From the NCBI GenBank assembly GCA_001303705.1, contig LJUI01000087.1, forward strand, positions 1-14,349: 14,349 nucleotides of DNA. Reading direction: 5' to 3'. Position numbers and translations under genes: made by a program. Source of the stretch: a candidate division TA06 bacterium SM23_40 (GTDB lineage: Bacteria > LJUI01 > SM1-40). Shown one piece after another: positions 13 to 13,001 of the stretch. Below the pieces are notes generated by a model. It ran no database searches. It saw only the letters and a list, made by a program, of their open reading frames with translations, and was not told the DNA's origin. Each line of letters begins with the position of its first letter. Positions within the stretch are counted from its first letter, which is position 1.

Positions 13-225
13 TCAGTCTGTTGTGTCACAGATTGCCCTCTCCTTTCTCGGCACCTTCGCCGACTCCACTTCCCGCCCAAGGGCGGCGGGAAGTAGGTTC
101 GACGTTAGTCTTGACTTGCGTATAGCTTGCTCATGGTCAGTCTTCCTTGCTCCTTCGCGGGCCCGCATCCTGCGGTACAGGGCGCGGGCGGTTGTGGTCG
201 CTAGTTCTTCGGTCTGAGTCGCCAT
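13..225 (-). CDS. Small leftward hypothetical protein (70 aa) with strong promoter
   Basis: Function unknown. The product is 70 aa, rich in Arg, Ala and Glu, predicted mostly helical, with no cysteines pairs, signal peptide or membrane segment. I chose the ATG at 225 because an AAGAAGG Shine-Dalgarno motif lies 8 nt upstream on the minus strand. A near-perfect sigma70 promoter at 266-294 points at it and would give a leader of about 35 nt. A TTG codon at 252 in the same frame would extend it by 9 residues but would sit almost on the transcription start. The gene faces away from the packaging operon, as early or regulatory phage genes often do; that role is only inferred. Codons 44-52 or so are encoded by a 10-bp perfect inverted repeat (68-94), which is odd for a coding region and is the main argument against the call. 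Confidence 0.5.
   Translation of the reverse strand: MATQTEELATTTARALYRRMRAREGARKTDHEQAIRKSRLTSNLLPAALGREVESAKVPRKERAICDTTD
68..94. repeat. 10-bp perfect inverted repeat
   Basis: ACTTCCCGCC at 68-77 is followed by a 7-nt loop and its exact complement GGCGGGAAGT at 85-94. No T-run follows on either strand, so it is not an ordinary intrinsic terminator. It lies inside the leftward 70-aa ORF. It could be an RNA hairpin, a protein-binding palindrome or simply coding sequence. Confidence 0.6.
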
Positions 226-265
226 GGGTCTCGCCTTCTTGCGTGGGTGCAATGTCTACAGCCAG

Positions 266-616: not shown

Positions 617-644
617 ATTTAACATAATCGATCTTATCGGACGT
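617..644. other. dif-like XerC/XerD recombination site (candidate attachment or resolution site)
   Basis: The 28-bp layout matches a dif site read in reverse. ATTTAACATAA (617-627) is the exact complement of the 11-bp XerD arm TTATGTTAAAT known from E. coli dif. A 6-bp centre TCGATC (628-633) follows, then TTATCGGACGT (634-644), which keeps the inner ATAA of the XerC arm but differs further out, as XerC arms often do. The site is an AT-rich island in otherwise GC-rich, gene-free DNA. Known uses of such sites outside the chromosome terminus are integration of phages and islands that exploit host XerCD, and dimer resolution of plasmids. Either would fit here. No recombinase gene is in the window. 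Confidence 0.5.
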
Positions 645-1370: not shown

Positions 1371-1465
1371 GCACAGTCCAATACCATATTCTTGGTCTGT
1401 GGCAAGAAGCCCCTTTCTCTTGACTTTTGGGGCAAAGTTGGATACGGAGGGAGCAGAAGTCCCAC

Positions 1466-2269
1466 ATGGGGCATTTGGGGACCTTGGAGGGAAGGGCCAC
1501 GGAGTCCACCAAGCCCACAGGCCGCAAGAGGCAGCCGACCACTCGATTTGCCCGGGAGCGCGCGAGGAAGTATCTGGGCGCCAAGCGGGTCCGCGTAACG
1601 GCGGTAGAACGCGAAGCCTACGATCTTCGCGAGCAGGGTCTTACCTGGGCCGAGTGCGCAGCGCGTCTGGACAAGGATCAGCGCACGATCCAGCGCGCCT
1701 ACCAGCGTGCGTGCGTCAAGATTCCGAAGGAAGGCGAGCTTCAGATCCCGCCGCAGAGCATCATGGCGAGGGATCCGGAGAGATATGCGGAGCTGGTTGA
1801 CGAGCTCACGCGACCGGACGACGCCGATCAGACGCTCGACGATATCGCCAAACGCATGAACCTTCCGCAGGAGACGGTCTACAACGTCGCCAAGCGTCTT
1901 CGGTCGATCTACTTCCCCACGAACGTCGAGGTGCGAAAGGTCAAGCTCGAGCGCCTGAAGGATCTCTGGGGCATGCGTGCCGAGGAGGCGCTTCTTGCCA
2001 TCACGCCCGAGAAGCTGGAGAACGCAGGGCCACGAGATCTGGGAATCATCGCCGGCATCGCGACCGAGAAGCTTCTGCTCCTGCGCGGACTTCCCACTCA
2101 GATCGTCCGCAACGAGGCCGACAGGGGCAAGATCGAGATTCTCGCCCAGGCCTTCATCAAGGAGGCCGAGCGGCGGGGCTATCGGTTCGATGCCGATACA
2201 GCAACCGGCCGCGTGGACCTAGGCTACGTCAGCCGGCCGAAGCAGACGATTGACGTAGACCCGGGCTAG
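1466..2269 (+). CDS. Small terminase subunit-like DNA-binding protein
   Basis: This is probably TerS, which recognises the phage packaging site and hands the DNA to the large terminase. The product is 267 aa. Two helix-turn-helix-like regions are visible, at about residues 45-82 and 122-146. They are followed by a Leu-rich helical region (about 155-210) of the kind that forms TerS rings; it ends in an 'ATEKLLLLRG-PT' segment common in phage small terminases. Residues 20-42 are strongly basic. I chose ATG 1466, which has GGAGGGA at 1447-1453. A TTG at 1427 would add 13 residues but has no ribosome site. The stop lies 6 nt before the large terminase ATG, the usual TerS-TerL arrangement. Any promoter just upstream is weak (TTGACT at 1420-1425 with a poor -10). 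The call rests on position and fold features rather than on a decisive motif. Confidence 0.75.
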   Translation: MGHLGTLEGRATESTKPTGRKRQPTTRFARERARKYLGAKRVRVTAVEREAYDLREQGLTWAECAARLDKDQRTIQRAYQRACVKIPKEGELQIPPQSIMARDPERYAELVDELTRPDDADQTLDDIAKRMNLPQETVYNVAKRLRSIYFPTNVEVRKVKLERLKDLWGMRAEEALLAITPEKLENAGPRDLGIIAGIATEKLLLLRGLPTQIVRNEADRGKIEILAQAFIKEAERRGYRFDADTATGRVDLGYVSRPKQTIDVDPG

Positions 2270-2275
2270 GGAGCA

Positions 2276-4057
2276 ATGCTCGATAGGATCACGGAAGCCG
2301 GCTTCGATCTGGATTCGTTCGATCCGAGCGATCTGCAGAGCCTCGATCGAGACCAGTTTGCGAAGACCGGAGCCGCGATTCTCGAGCTCTACCGGGCCGA
2401 CCGTCAGGAGAACCAGCTTCGCTACTACAAGCCCGTGAGCCCTGCGGCGCGAAAGATTCACGAGGCGACCGAAACCATCATCGGCGTCGGGGGCGGCAAC
2501 GGCAGCTCCAAAACCGAGACGTGTATGGTGGAGCTGCTCATTCTCTCCACGGGCATCATTCCGGACTCGCTGAACGACGGAACGATCGATTGGAAAGCGA
2601 AATTCCGCGGACCCAGAAAGCAGCGAATCGTCGTAGAATCGCTGACGACAACGCTGCACACGATCATCCTTCCCAAGCTCAAGTGGTGGGTCTGGACGGG
2701 GCTAGGGGAGCCCGGAGGGCCGAAGGGGCACTGGGGCTGGCTGCCGAAATGGGCCTTGATCGATGGATCGTGGGACAAGAGCTGGAGCGAGAAGCTAAGG
2801 CTGCTGCGGTTTCTCTGCCGCAATCCGGACGATCCGGACGAAGTTCTGGGCGAGAGCACGATTCAGTTCATGGCCCACGGCCAGGAGCCGCAGGACTTCG
2901 CCTCCGGTGACTTCGACGAGGTGCTCCACGACGAGCCGCCGAGGCTCGCGATCTGGACCGAGAACGAGGCCCGGACCATGCGTGCGGACGGTCGCATGCT
3001 TCTTGCGATGACCTGGCCGGACGATCCTGCCATTCCGGTGGATTGGATTCATGACAAGATCTATGCACACGGAAGGGAGCCTGACAAGCGGGAAGACACG
3101 ATCTGGCTAGAGCTCTCGACATTCGACAATCCCCATCTGAATCAAGAATCAGTCAGATCGCAGGCCGAGCGCTGGGATTCGGTCACCCGGGCCGTGCGAT
3201 TCGAGGGCAAGCCGATCCGGTTCAGCAACCGGGTGCATCCGCTGTTCACCGATCGCGACGCTTGGTGGTGCTTCTCGTGCAAGAAGGACAGCTTCGTCGA
3301 GCTGCGTGAAGGCAAGTATCGCTGTGTCGAGTGCAACGGAACCAATGTCCAGCTCTACAATCACGTTGCCGCCTTCGACGTCGAGCCGACCTGGCCGACG
3401 GTCTATCTGCTGGACCCGCATCCGAGGAAGCCCCACATGATGCTCTGGGCACAGATTTCGCCGCAGGACGACGTATGGATTCAGAAGGAGCTCGAGCACG
3501 ACGGAGGTTGCGAGGAGGTATCCGAGCGTGTTATGATCATCGAAGAGGAGTTCGGATTCCAGGTAGCCAAGCGCTGGATGGATCCCAACATGGGCGCTTC
3601 CCCGGCCAATGCCCAGAGACGCGAGCAGACCTGGCAGGACGAGTTCTCGGATTCTGGCCTTCGCTGCGATCTGGCGGATGATTTCATGGGCGGACGCAAG
3701 CGAATCAACACCTATCTCGAGCCAGATCCGCGGACCTATGACGTAAGGATCCATGTTCACAGGGATCGCTGCCCCACGGTTGTCTCGCAGATGCTTCGCT
3801 ACTGCTGGGCCGATTACAAGCGAAGCACCGAACGGGATCAGCTTCAGAAGCCGAGGGACAAGTACGACGACTATCCGACGCTTTTGAAGTACCTGCTGAA
3901 CTCGAATCCGGAGTTCACGGTTTTGCGAACAGGCTCGCCCATCATTTCGCGTAGACGCGCGAACATTGAGGCAAGAAAGAATCCCAACAAAAACAGAGGA
4001 TCGGAATCATGGTCAAGAGAGCAATATTCACGGCGATATTCTACGGCGCATTGGTAG
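2276..4057 (+). CDS. terL: Terminase large subunit (ATPase-nuclease) with zinc-ribbon insertion
   Basis: This is the packaging motor: it hydrolyses ATP to drive DNA into the prohead through the portal and cuts the concatemer. The product is 593 aa. The ATPase domain shows a Walker A motif at 71-80 (VGGGNGSSKT), Walker B with the catalytic Glu at 213-220 (FDEVLHDE) and a coupling-type motif at 242-248. The nuclease domain has candidate metal-binding acids at D380 in LLDPHPR, D436 in RWMDPN and D531/D532 near the end. Between the domains, residues 332-353 carry CxxC-N14-CxxC, a zinc ribbon that standard large terminases lack. The gene follows TerS directly, with GGGAG overlapping the TerS stop codon. 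Its last 49 nt overlap the start of the next small gene. The basic, Asn/Ser-rich tail after residue 558 is probably flexible. Length and motif order fit the family well. Confidence 0.95.
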   Translation: MLDRITEAGFDLDSFDPSDLQSLDRDQFAKTGAAILELYRADRQENQLRYYKPVSPAARKIHEATETIIGVGGGNGSSKTETCMVELLILSTGIIPDSLNDGTIDWKAKFRGPRKQRIVVESLTTTLHTIILPKLKWWVWTGLGEPGGPKGHWGWLPKWALIDGSWDKSWSEKLRLLRFLCRNPDDPDEVLGESTIQFMAHGQEPQDFASGDFDEVLHDEPPRLAIWTENEARTMRADGRMLLAMTWPDDPAIPVDWIHDKIYAHGREPDKREDTIWLELSTFDNPHLNQESVRSQAERWDSVTRAVRFEGKPIRFSNRVHPLFTDRDAWWCFSCKKDSFVELREGKYRCVECNGTNVQLYNHVAAFDVEPTWPTVYLLDPHPRKPHMMLWAQISPQDDVWIQKELEHDGGCEEVSERVMIIEEEFGFQVAKRWMDPNMGASPANAQRREQTWQDEFSDSGLRCDLADDFMGGRKRINTYLEPDPRTYDVRIHVHRDRCPTVVSQMLRYCWADYKRSTERDQLQKPRDKYDDYPTLLKYLLNSNPEFTVLRTGSPIISRRRANIEARKNPNKNRGSESWSREQYSRRYSTAHW

Positions 4058-4676: not shown

Positions 4677-5091
4677 GAAGAAAATAGGCTGCTGCACGCT
4701 ATGTGGAAAGGAGGTCTTTGAAATCCTTTCTCGATATCCCCAAGATCATCCGCTGGCCGGGGAGCCGCGAAAGCTGGGCAAACCGCTGGAAAGCGCTAGA
4801 CGAGTTGATCTGGTTCTGATTGGTGGATCGACGGCATCGGTTACGGTCTGCAGCTCCTGCGAGGTAAGTGACAAGACGCTTCCTAGACTGTGGAAGATAT
4901 GCTCGGATGCTAGCGGTCAAGAGATAACCGAGCCGGACAGGAGAGCCGCGAAGGGAATCAGGCAGTTGAAAGAAGAGCAGTATCATGCGGTCGTCGCTTC
5001 CGCGATTAGAATCGCTGCGGATCTTCCAATTTCCATTCTTTCAAACAGTAGCTGGAAGGAAATCTATGACATCGCCGCCCGTACCGGATAG
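4663..5091 (+). CDS. Zinc-ribbon hypothetical protein (142 aa)
   Basis: The start is the ATG at 4663, inside the end of the previous gene. An ATG at 4603 is in frame, but the extra 20 residues are an Arg/Ser-rich shadow of the upstream gene. Cysteines at 10, 11 and 14 near the N-terminus and a CSSC at 63-66 form a plausible zinc ribbon with about 48 residues between the pairs. The C-terminal third is helical. The stop overlaps the portal start by 26 nt, implying translational coupling to the portal gene. No function is recognised. Confidence 0.7.
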   Translation: MRPNKKKIGCCTLCGKEVFEILSRYPQDHPLAGEPRKLGKPLESARRVDLVLIGGSTASVTVCSSCEVSDKTLPRLWKICSDASGQEITEPDRRAAKGIRQLKEEQYHAVVASAIRIAADLPISILSNSSWKEIYDIAARTG

Positions 5092-7471
5092 CCCGCCTAG
5101 TCGTAGGCGACGACCGAGGCTTCGCGAGATCAAAGGCGGGACGAGAAGAACCCGTCCGAGAAGGCTGCAGCTCAAGCCCAAGTACGAGACGATCGCGCAG
5201 CGGGTAATCGACTTCGCCAAGCGCGACCGCGAGAACCGACAGGATGAGCGCGACCGAAGGCTTCAGCGTTGCGCGAAGCTCAGGATGTGGTCGGAAGCGA
5301 GCGATCAGTTTCCCTGGCCGGACTCTTCGGACTTCGCGGTTCCGGACATGGCAACCGCCTCCTTCCGTACCCAGGATACGCTTCACAATGCGGTCATGAG
5401 CCACAGGCCGCCGATGCTCGCGAAGTCTCACCACAAACACAACAAGGAGAAGGAGGAGACGATCAACGCGCTGCTTGATCATCAGTTCTTCGTTGAGCAG
5501 CCGGGGGAGCACATCGTCGAGGAGGCCGCTGACTGCTTCGTCAACGAAGGTGTGCTGACGCTCTTCGTTCCGTGGGTTCGCGAGCGAAGGCCGGTTAGCG
5601 ATCTGCGATTCTTCCCCAAGATCCCGCGCGAGATGGAGCCAGACGAATATTTCATGGCTCTTCTCGAGCAGGAGTTTCCGAGAACGTCCCATCGACGGCG
5701 TGGCGAGGAGGGCTGGGACTGGGAGATCTTCTCTGGAGACGATCGTTTCGATGTCTCCTTCTACACCGAGCCGAAGACAGAGAGCGTGAGAATGGTCATC
5801 GATCGTCAGACGACGATCTTTGATGGCCCACGGGTGATGGTCAAGGAGATGGACGATGTCCTCTGTCCACCTCGCTGCGCCAATCTCCAGCCCCCCGGAC
5901 CGTCGAATCCCGAGGGTGCGCCCCACGTCATTCTAGTCGAAAGACCGACCTTGGATGAGCTTCGTAGGCTCCAGAAGGACGGCTTCTACGATCGCGTCAG
6001 CGCAGAGGAGCTGGAGAAGCTCAAAGGCGTGACTCCAGAGAGATCCGATGATGATATCAGGCAGCAGCAGAAGGACGCGATGACCGGGGAGAGGGATCAA
6101 CCCGACACGCGAGTCAGCAGCCAAAATCGCTTTGAGATGTATGTCTGCTTCGATCGATTCGACGTCGATGGCGACGGGCTCGACGAGGATATGATTTGGT
6201 GGGTGCTGAAGGAGAAGAAGCTACTTCTGAAGGCTGCGATCATGACCGAGATGTACCCGATGAGCCCGCCCTGCAGGCCATTTGCGGAGAGTACGTTCTT
6301 GCCTGCGAAGGGTCGCCGGGAGGGAATGAGTTTGCTCGAGATCATGGAATCGACTCATGATCTGATCAAGGAGCTTTGGGATCAAATGGTCGATGCCGGA
6401 ACGATGGCAGTCTCCCCGCCTGGATTCTATCGACCGCAGTCGAACGTCAAGCCGGAAGTCCTCACCTACCTTCCTGGCGACCTCTACCCGCTGAATGATC
6501 CAAGCCGCGATGTCTCCTTCCCGCAGGTGGGAAACGCGAATCAGACCTTCTCGTTGAATGCAATCACGATCGCCAGACAGCTGCAGAGCGATGTGATCAT
6601 GATCAGCGATCTGAATCTCGGGAAGATTCCTGCCGGCAAGAGCTCGGCATTCAGGACGACTGGTACCACAGAGAACATACTGGCGCAGAGCGAGGCACGA
6701 CCGGAACGGATCCTGCGCCGCTTCTTCATGGCCTTCAAGCAGGCTTGGTGGATCATGCACGAGCTAGATAAGCACTTGCTTCCGGACGAGAAGAAGTTCA
6801 GGATCGTGGGATATAAGCCGGCAGGTCAGGATCCATATCGCGAGATCAAGAGCCGAAAGGATATCGAGGGATCCTACGAGTTCGAGTTTCAGGCGAACGT
6901 GGCGAACTCCAGCAAGATTGCGCTGCAACAGGCACTCATGCAGGCGTCCGCTGCCGTGCTCAATCCCGTTGCGATTCAGCTTGGCATAACGAGGCCCGAG
7001 GATGTCTATAACCTGATCTATGACATCCTGCGTGCCCTGGGTCTTGATAGCGACCAGTATACGAGCCCGCCGATTCCGGAAGCGCATCTTCTGCGCATCT
7101 TTGCGGAGGAGGCCATTAGCGCCATCTTGCTGGAGACCGCGCCTTATGGGGTTCCGGCCGAGCAGGGAGGCTGGAATGAGCATCTGCTGCGGTTGCGCGA
7201 ATTCATGAATGACGATGTGCGCTTTGCGGTCGTGGATACGCCCAAGGCGCAGCAGCTCTTCAGAGCCTATATGGAGAAGGTTAGCGAGGAGGCTGCCCGC
7301 GAGCGCGAGAAGGCCCAGCTCGCCGCTGCAGCAGCAGGGACGAGTCCGGGTCCGCCTGGAAGGTCCGGTCCGCCCGCGGAGGCTCGCCCGAATCTAGCCA
7401 CTCCGCGGGTTCAACCGGGCGAGCTGATCGAGGAGGCGCTGCCTAGCGCTGGCGGGGGTGCAAATCGCTGA
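5066..7471 (+). CDS. Portal protein
   Basis: This is probably the portal, the dodecameric ring at the capsid vertex through which DNA enters and leaves. It fits by position (after TerS and TerL, before scaffold and capsid), by size (801 aa, in the range of large P22-type portals) and by the absence of enzymatic motifs. The mix of acidic and aromatic alpha/beta segments in the core is followed by long helices and a disordered Ala/Pro/Gly tail (about 750-801). I chose ATG 5066 because GGAAGGAA stands 4-12 nt upstream. An ATG at 4985 in frame adds 27 residues that are only the shadow of the overlapping gene. The first 35 or so residues are Pro/Arg-rich and basic, probably flexible. The last base of the stop codon is the first base of the next ATG. 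I could not confirm the family by search. Confidence 0.8.
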   Translation: MTSPPVPDSPPSRRRRPRLREIKGGTRRTRPRRLQLKPKYETIAQRVIDFAKRDRENRQDERDRRLQRCAKLRMWSEASDQFPWPDSSDFAVPDMATASFRTQDTLHNAVMSHRPPMLAKSHHKHNKEKEETINALLDHQFFVEQPGEHIVEEAADCFVNEGVLTLFVPWVRERRPVSDLRFFPKIPREMEPDEYFMALLEQEFPRTSHRRRGEEGWDWEIFSGDDRFDVSFYTEPKTESVRMVIDRQTTIFDGPRVMVKEMDDVLCPPRCANLQPPGPSNPEGAPHVILVERPTLDELRRLQKDGFYDRVSAEELEKLKGVTPERSDDDIRQQQKDAMTGERDQPDTRVSSQNRFEMYVCFDRFDVDGDGLDEDMIWWVLKEKKLLLKAAIMTEMYPMSPPCRPFAESTFLPAKGRREGMSLLEIMESTHDLIKELWDQMVDAGTMAVSPPGFYRPQSNVKPEVLTYLPGDLYPLNDPSRDVSFPQVGNANQTFSLNAITIARQLQSDVIMISDLNLGKIPAGKSSAFRTTGTTENILAQSEARPERILRRFFMAFKQAWWIMHELDKHLLPDEKKFRIVGYKPAGQDPYREIKSRKDIEGSYEFEFQANVANSSKIALQQALMQASAAVLNPVAIQLGITRPEDVYNLIYDILRALGLDSDQYTSPPIPEAHLLRIFAEEAISAILLETAPYGVPAEQGGWNEHLLRLREFMNDDVRFAVVDTPKAQQLFRAYMEKVSEEAAREREKAQLAAAAAGTSPGPPGRSGPPAEARPNLATPRVQPGELIEEALPSAGGGANR

Positions 7472-10233: not shown

Positions 10234-11010
10234 ATGAAGTGGAGTGGAGTCGGCACGTTGCCAGACTTCAACGAGTTTACCGGCTTGATCGAGTACCAGA
10301 GCCAGAGCCAAGGCTACGATACGACGGCGACTCACATCGAGTTTGCGAATGGATGCCAGGTGGAGCGGAAGCTCTTTGATGACGATCAGTACAACGTCTT
10401 CAATCAGCGACCGGCTGCGCTCGGAGCATCCGCAGCGAGGACCAGGGAGAAGCACGCGGCCAGGCTACTGAATATGGCGTTCAGCAACGATACGTACTTC
10501 TACAACAACACGGAAGGCGTGGCGCTGTGTAGCAATAGCCATACGACCACATCGGGTGCGTCAACTGCGAGCGGATTCGACAACCTCGGGACCGCGTCCA
10601 TGACAGCGGTCGCGGTTGCTACAGGCCGAATCCAGATGGTCGGATTCCGCGGCGATCAGGCCGAGCGGATCAGCGTGATTCCGAATCAGCTCTGGTATCC
10701 GCCGGATCTCTATGAGAAAGCCTACGAGATCATCAACGCTTCTGGCAAGGTAGATACTGCGCTCAATAACCCGAACGTTCACGAGGGCAAGTATACCGGA
10801 CACGAATGGAACTTCCTTACCGACTCGAACAACTGGTTCATGATCGATTCTCGTACATCAGCCAGGATGTTCCACTGGATCGATCGAATTGCACTCGAGT
10901 TCGGGATGATCGAGGATTTCGACACGCTGATTGCGAAGTTCAGGGCATACATGCGATACAGCATCGCCTGGACGGACTGGCGCTGCATCTGCGGATTCCA
11001 GGTTTCGTAG
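10234..11010 (+). CDS. Major capsid protein (HK97-fold-like); N-terminus lies upstream
   Basis: This forms the capsid shell. The 258 aa from the first ATG show the usual layout of phage major capsid proteins: an N-terminal segment with 'GVGTLP' and 'IEYQ', a basic/acidic stretch ending in 'FDDDQYN', a 'LCSNSHTTTSG' loop, a central beta region with 'VIPNQLWYPPDL', and a C-terminal domain ending in aromatic strands. With ATG 10234 the product lacks roughly 35-50 residues that the upstream in-frame DNA encodes. The true protein is therefore probably 290-310 aa, or part of a longer fusion. No ribosome site precedes ATG 10234. The gene follows scaffold, zinc protein and decoration genes in canonical order. 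Family assignment is by pattern recall, not a search. Confidence 0.85.
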   Translation: MKWSGVGTLPDFNEFTGLIEYQSQSQGYDTTATHIEFANGCQVERKLFDDDQYNVFNQRPAALGASAARTREKHAARLLNMAFSNDTYFYNNTEGVALCSNSHTTTSGASTASGFDNLGTASMTAVAVATGRIQMVGFRGDQAERISVIPNQLWYPPDLYEKAYEIINASGKVDTALNNPNVHEGKYTGHEWNFLTDSNNWFMIDSRTSARMFHWIDRIALEFGMIEDFDTLIAKFRAYMRYSIAWTDWRCICGFQVS

Positions 11011-12155: not shown

Positions 12156-13001
12156 ATGAAGACCCGGCCGAACCATATCATCGTTGGGCTAGGCTCGGGG
12201 CGATGCGGAACGAAGAGCCTGGCGGCCATCCTTGGTCTCCCCCACGAGGCTGTTGCACTTCCGTGGGAGCATGACGAGCGGCTCTTCAGGGCGGCGATGA
12301 GCAAGCTGTCCCGCACTGGCGGTGATGTCGGCTGCTACTGGCTGACCTACGCCGAAAGGGTGCTAGAGACCTTTCCTGATACTAGGTTCATCTGTCTGAA
12401 GCGTCCCAGAAAGGAGACTGTGGCAAGCTGGGTGCGTCGCTTCGCTGGTGCAGAGACATTTGATCTCTTCGTCATGCACCTGGACGATGAGGCCCGGATT
12501 CATGCCCCGAGGATGTTTCCGGACTACGGAGATAGGCCGATTGCGGAGGCCGCCGGGCTTTACTGGGACGAGTACTATGAGAAGGCCGAGAAGCTTCAGG
12601 AGAGATATCAACAATGCTTCCGGATCTTCTCCATGTCTCCTGTCCTGAATGAGCCCATGGCGCAAGCCGAGATGCTCCGGTTCGTCGGATCTAAGCAGGC
12701 AACTTGGACGAACTTTCACAAGAACAAGGGAACGGTGAAGGATCCTCTTCTAGGCAACATTCTGAGGGACGTTCTCGGATATCTCATCCGAAACGAGAAG
12801 GTCTATGCAGGAACACGGGCCACCGTGACCCCGAAGGCTGGCTCTCAGCTCGGGAGAGCTGCAGTCAAGCGCGGTATATCGCAACAGGAGACGGATCCGA
12901 TTCTCTTGGATTTCGGGAAGCTCTCTGAGCATCGTGCAAGGCCGTTCGACTTTGACATGATTGCGCAGAATCCTAGGCAAGGAGTCATTCAACATGCGTA
13001 G
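12156..13001 (+). CDS. Sulfotransferase-like protein
   Basis: This is probably a PAPS-dependent sulfotransferase, transferring sulfate from 3'-phosphoadenylyl sulfate to a hydroxyl on a sugar or other acceptor. The product is 281 aa, usual for the family. The N-terminal strand and loop at about residues 8-22 (IIVGLGSGRCGTKSL) match the 5'-phosphosulfate-binding P-loop-like motif. FICLKRPRKETVASW at 78-92 matches the 3'-phosphate-binding strand-loop-helix with a conserved-type Arg and Ser91. The acceptor site cannot be read. AGGATCG precedes the ATG, 8 nt after the previous stop. The gene sits inside the structural operon and overlaps the next by 8 nt, so it is expressed with the late genes. 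Likely use, inferred: modifying a glycan on the virion or the host surface. A nucleotide kinase-like P-loop protein is the main alternative. Confidence 0.75.
   Translation: MKTRPNHIIVGLGSGRCGTKSLAAILGLPHEAVALPWEHDERLFRAAMSKLSRTGGDVGCYWLTYAERVLETFPDTRFICLKRPRKETVASWVRRFAGAETFDLFVMHLDDEARIHAPRMFPDYGDRPIAEAAGLYWDEYYEKAEKLQERYQQCFRIFSMSPVLNEPMAQAEMLRFVGSKQATWTNFHKNKGTVKDPLLGNILRDVLGYLIRNEKVYAGTRATVTPKAGSQLGRAAVKRGISQQETDPILLDFGKLSEHRARPFDFDMIAQNPRQGVIQHA

Follow-up and report, generated by a model that had tools for sequence, protein, structure and literature searches.

A dif-like XerC/XerD site upstream of the terminase genes of tailed phages, a candidate attP

Described users of dif and the plasmid Xer sites

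Filamentous phages, tailless phages and genetic islands are already described as integrating at dif through host XerC and XerD. The filamentous IMEX (CTXphi, VGJphi and TLCphi, as well as CUS-1 and Ypfphi) carry a dif-like attP that is recombined by host XerC/XerD (PMC5357621, PMC2731167), and they provide a precedent for integration without an integrase (PMC5357621). They differ from the phage considered here in their single-stranded DNA, the attP of CTXphi being folded ssDNA. Among double-stranded elements, the NO16 vibriophages (‘Asemoviridae’) are temperate, carry dif-like sites and have been proposed to integrate by XerCD, but they are tailless (PMC9966536); integrases are noted to be a regular feature of tailless prophages at dif (PMC11630473). 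The gonococcal genetic island is also a large double-stranded element, and its difGGI has a XerC arm equal to that of the host dif and a XerD arm that diverges, as our site has relative to the presumed host dif, although the island is not a phage and the difGGI center equals that of the host dif, whereas ours matches the presumed host dif at three of six positions (PMC5357621).

Jorvik, a tailless, membrane-containing dsDNA phage of Rhodobacter capsulatus, has no integrase gene, its attP and attB are both dif-like, and integrated copies have been sequenced (PMC10589892). It shares with the phage family studied here double-stranded DNA, the lack of an integrase gene and a motif conserved among relatives, but it is a tailless relative of the Vinavirales with an attB in the RuBisCO operon, and it is not known to have a terminase-adjacent placement or a phased IHF motif (PMC10589892). 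Integration of Jorvik without an integrase, at a site resembling dif, makes the mechanism plausible for double-stranded phages. For tailed phages, a limited literature search with incomplete coverage of subscription journals found no description of dif/XerCD integration.

The plasmid sites cer and psi likewise consist of two arms and a short center, are used by host XerCD and have a XerD arm nearly as in the site described below. They differ in that they are limited to intramolecular resolution, which involves accessory DNA for ArgR/PepA or ArcA, and in a XerC inner arm unlike that of dif.

The site at 617–644 and its probable host counterpart

The window, which is the whole stretch of 14,349 nucleotides analyzed here, is the entire IMG/VR contig IMGVR_UViG_2654588067_000003, identical to contig C36 of the bin. 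Its dif-like site of 28 bp (617–644, minus strand) consists of a XerC-type arm, ACGTCCGATAA (634–644), a 6-bp center that reads GATCGA (628–633) and a XerD-type arm, TTATGTTAAAT (617–627), so that the plus strand reads ATTTAACATAA TCGATC TTATCGGACGT. The exact 11-bp XerD-type arm reported in an earlier note on this DNA is borne out; it is canonical and matches that of E. coli K-12 dif at every position. Inner ATAA and TTAT are present in the 11-6-11 layout of dif-type sites, and the inner bases of the XerC arm are the dif-type ATAA rather than those of cer and psi. The pattern ATTTAACATAAN6TTAT with up to three mismatches has this one match in the window, and any such match occurred in 7 of 200 shuffled windows. 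A first-order Markov model predicts 4e-4 exact copies of the 11-mer per window, in line with the earlier view that it is unlikely by chance, and ∼5e-7 copies with a correctly spaced TTAT; this arm-plus-TTAT pattern is unique to the window site across the 2.88-Mb bin. The identification of 617–644 as a Xer-type site is well supported, and we predict that XerC and XerD bind and recombine it.

The description of the surroundings as gene-free DNA beside a packaging operon also holds. On the evidence of the ORF list and of synteny, the site occupies part of a control region in which no gene is supported (253–1426), a gap of ∼1.2 kb between a possible small leftward ORF (13–252, minus strand, 79 aa, TTG start), which may perhaps begin an early operon, and a rightward packaging operon from ∼1427. 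This operon encodes an HTH protein with sigma-70 region-4-like domains (1427–2269, plus strand), to which its position gives the putative role of small terminase, the terminase large subunit (TerL; 2276–4057, plus strand), with 22–24% identity to annotated Arthrobacter and Microbacterium phage terminases, an SU10-type portal protein (4985–7471, plus strand) and the major capsid protein (10234–11010, plus strand). The window record, a 14-kb fragment, has no match to the tyrosine integrase profile PF00589, and no IHF motif was found in the window. An ORF among the structural genes (12156–13001) bears a weak likeness to sulfotransferases (Sulfotransfer_3, below cut-off). The same bin's dataset holds a second, distinct phage of the window's TerL family, L030 (IMGVR_UViG_2654588067_000002), and the clade of L030 includes L029, which shares the window's XerC arm.

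The earlier note had called for an alignment to the dif of candidate hosts. Apart from the window site, the bin has a single perfect match to ATAAN6TTATGTNNACT, at ∼88–115 of contig G000:C104 (ACGTCCGATAA GGGAGA TTATGTCTACT); this site, which adjoins a kinase/TPR gene, is probably the host dif. Its XerC arm is identical to that of the window site at 11 of 11 positions, as is that of the distant relative L029, so that the window's XerC arm, which had been called partial, is partial with respect to E. coli dif only. The centers agree at three of six positions and the XerD arms differ. The bin contains a XerC adjoining trmFO, which scores 331.6 bits where the XerC model requires 335.15 and is accepted by the wider tyrosine-recombinase model; no XerD was identified in this 90% complete bin. 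A tyrosine recombinase distinct from the trmFO-linked XerC is encoded on the contig of the probable host dif (L278, 5504–6571).

Conservation of the site and its relation to integrase genes

TerL searches yielded 98 relative loci, in which we sought the literature-type pattern ATAAN6TTATGNNAANT. The 0.38 Mb upstream of TerL holds nine perfect sites and the 0.78 Mb downstream none, compared to one and none, respectively, for a reversed-pattern control. The site-bearing loci form eight distinct lineages (the window, L007, L029, L045, L054, L059, L079/L081 and L089), all eight with the site upstream of TerL (P = 1e-4), and the TerL proteins of distant relatives with perfect dif-like sites are ∼48–55% identical. 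L050, L021 and L076 have near-perfect sites, and whole-record searches added G010 and L091 (= G002:C18) as site-bearing; the latter, a 47,051-bp contig of an alphaproteobacterial MAG, carries the site ACTGCGCATAA CCGTTA TTATGTTAAAT and a 141-bp terminal repeat, with no PF00589 match listed. A portal-based search returned zero further relatives. In L007, near-repeats (TATCAAYNNCTTRG...ATGCTGCGGTGC) surround the Xer site at 6740–6960 and are possible accessory binding sites. One prophage relative on a 290-kb gammaproteobacterial contig (L093) was set aside: its right junction lies in the 3′ end of a tRNA, so it looks tRNA-integrated, and its XerD-arm match is probably due to chance.

Among family records of at least 30 kb, the site and a tyrosine integrase never occur together. 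Seven have the site without an integrase (G004, G005, G006, G007, G008, G010 and L091), six an integrase without the site (G013, G014, G019, G035, G040 and G063) and three neither (G012, G018 and G062), a lack of overlap with P = 0.010; G007 was counted as site-bearing with one mismatch to the pattern, and the G040 integrase scores below the family cut-off. The site-only G004, G005 and L091 (141–144 bp) and the integrase genome G013 have terminal repeats and therefore look complete. We regard the exclusion as moderate evidence, because the records are related and most come without proof of completeness. In the TerL tree the site and integrase states interleave, with at least four changes when L091 is taken as unlabelled. 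The earlier note had named two outcomes that would speak against its reading, namely that no relative has a conserved site here, or that the element is found integrated elsewhere by its own integrase. The first is contradicted by the perfect upstream sites of the eight lineages, and, for the second, the family relatives with an integrase are those that do not have the site. Sinorhizobium phage phiM5, to which cluster 1 is most closely related among isolated phages, carries an integrase and lacks the site. The 17 family records, window fragment included, contain no ParA-type partition gene (PF13614), nor was a serine recombinase found in the 17. The complete, site-bearing G005 encodes DnaB, ERF, a Holliday-junction resolvase and an HTH_3 repressor-like domain.

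Such sites extend well beyond this family. A scan with CCGATAAN6TTATGNTAAAT matched at least 120 viral contigs from many clusters, compared to an estimated chance expectation of ∼4 that we infer from an assumed collection size, and more than 100 other viral contigs outside the window's family carry sites of this kind. Profile matches identify several of the proteins encoded beside the sites as terminases. Among the matches listed, 107 sites have a detectable TerL, and 99 of these are no more than 1.5 kb upstream of where TerL starts, 8 at 1.5–5 kb and none downstream; the median distance among these matches is 630 bp, a value that is biased, since the TerL queries were partly chosen near such sites, while the side is unbiased. 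The site-bearing contigs represent nine terminase groups at 35% identity, across which the arms keep the dif pattern. The sites seemed at first to favor one orientation with respect to TerL (80:19 among the matches listed), but this preference disappeared once terminases were grouped by relatedness (4:4 at 35% identity).

The IHF-consensus motif WATCAANNNNTTR is enriched 28-fold within 120 bp of the family sites (7 motifs at 6 of 12 sites) and 17.6-fold near the sites of other clusters. A composite of the site, 6–20 bp and TATCAANNNCTTA occurs in at least 120 contigs. At the 72 distinct composite sites among the matches listed, the gap is 14 bp in 46, 19 in 16, 20 in 4, 8 in 3, 13 in 2 and 18 in 1, with zero at 6, 7, 9–12 or 15–17 bp. 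The mirror composite, with the IHF motif on the XerC side, was found in nine contigs, eight of which have a gap of 16–17 bp. Integrases were found in 2 of 23 non-enterobacterial site-bearing records outside the window's family. One circular genome of 34.9 kb, phage C72C1 (OQ984150), has an annotated repressor, no annotated integrase and the site TTGTCGCATAA CGTCCA TTATGTAATCT immediately upstream of a TerL homologue. Two further observations concern multiple sites: G061 has four similar dif-like sites on contigs C12, C21, C42 and C53 (CCCATAAGAAATGTTATGTCAACT and variants), reminiscent of Xer-using mobile modules, and a single 155-kb phage contig carries two dif-like sites with different flanks (L143, 7404; L155, 3740).

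The enterobacterial phages of cluster 2 mostly combine both features, with an integrase in 11 of 14 site-bearing records. An E. coli B379 prophage in dusA has the site GGTGCGTGTAA GGACCA TTATGTTAAAT (L284, 22326) and its own integrase gene, and Klebsiella phage Mulock has GGTGCGGGTAA CAGTCA TTATGTTAAAT (L286, 1489) with an integrase and an excisionase. The XerC arms of these phages end on the inside with GTGTAA or GGGTAA and look more like those of plasmid sites. Since integrase-bearing phages also have Xer-like sites, such a site may serve something other than integration and need not be an attP. The sites at L284 22326, L286 1489 and L287 18805 are psi-like and lie near terL/portal, and a 54-bp stretch around the enterobacterial site is 87% common to otherwise different phages, as if exchanged.

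A duplicated or hybrid dif flanking the element, which the earlier note had proposed to look for, did not turn up in the fragmented bin or in the plasmid and chromid regions examined, and no integrated tailed phage with dif attL/attR was found there or in a few genome searches. In plasmid records, the TerL of the window or of L054 had no match; the terminases of two other groups had matches below 36% identity, and the four regions opened held no good site. The insertions at E. coli dif that were sampled proved to be two-integrase recombinase islands and not tailed prophages; at L470 and L471, in the E. coli dif region, islands encoding a pair of neighboring site-specific integrases as well as a hypothetical protein lie beside hipA at dif in some E. 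coli.

Proposed function, alternatives and implications

The reading that we favor, by a modest leaning and from sequence comparison, is that the window site is a genuine recombination site for host XerC/XerD and most probably serves as attP for a temperate tailed phage that has no integrase. Once in the cell, the phage genome would circularize, and host XerCD would recombine attP with the chromosomal dif; the resulting prophage would have the packaging operon at one end and the early genes at the other. An IHF-type bending site, which many related and unrelated phages have at a fixed phase but the window lacks, probably gives the synapse its shape in those phages. Against integration, the centers of the window site and the presumed host dif match at three of six positions and the XerD arms differ. 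XerCD binding, recombination, integration at dif and lysogeny are assigned here by inference, because the searches turned up no integrated copy bordered by dif junctions, and similar sites occur in integrase-bearing enterobacterial phages. More tentatively still, at somewhat short of even odds, a large polyphyletic class of tailed phages may have lost their own integrase and integrate at dif via XerCD, with a composite attP (Xer site and phased IHF motif) heading the packaging operon and with integrase and Xer-site modules repeatedly swapped.

The same site could instead resolve multimers, with host XerCD turning a dimer or concatemer of a circular phage genome or plasmid prophage into monomers, as at cer and psi, and without integration. 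We consider this rather unlikely, though the chief alternative. It would fit the Xer-like sites of integrase-bearing phages (the B379 prophage, Mulock and the integrase-bearing records of cluster 2), a position adjoining the terminase would suit a link to the replication or packaging form, and the window center GATCGA resembles the psi center GATCCA. Within the window's family, however, the site replaces the integrase, ParA is absent from the 17 records, and the XerC arms are dif-type, with ATAA inside, unlike those of cer and psi. Moreover, plasmid Xer sites need long ArgR/PepA accessory stretches, whereas here a single IHF-type motif recurs.

We give a distinctly lower probability to a regulatory or packaging element, such as a late promoter operator or a cos/pac site seen by the small terminase, in which an AT-rich inverted repeat with IHF would have come to resemble dif by convergence. 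The position of the sites among the matches listed, always upstream of TerL and mostly within 1.5 kb, would suit such an element, and lambda cosB contains an IHF site. A site specific to a terminase or repressor, however, would be expected to vary with the terminase, not to converge on dif, yet the arms keep the dif pattern across nine unrelated terminase groups; the XerC arm of the phage equals that of the probable host dif exactly, and the integrase exclusion would be left unexplained. A chance resemblance without function could be entertained for one short motif on one contig. Given the expectation of 5e-7 per window, the recurrence of the site upstream of TerL in distant relatives and the more than 100 contigs that combine it with a phased IHF motif, we regard it as highly improbable, and conservation already refutes it.

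The many unrelated tailed phages that carry such sites, mostly without a recognizable integrase gene, suggest that they borrow host XerC/XerD to join or separate DNA. Environmental tailed phages without an integrase are commonly taken as lytic; if the Xer site is an attP, part of them would be temperate, the arms would predict integration site and host, and dif would be a common docking point for tailed, filamentous and tailless phages. If it is a resolution site instead, host Xer proteins would have an unrecognized role in tailed-phage replication or packaging. Either reading yields a testable sequence rule, namely that a dif-like site precedes TerL and is often accompanied by a phased IHF motif.
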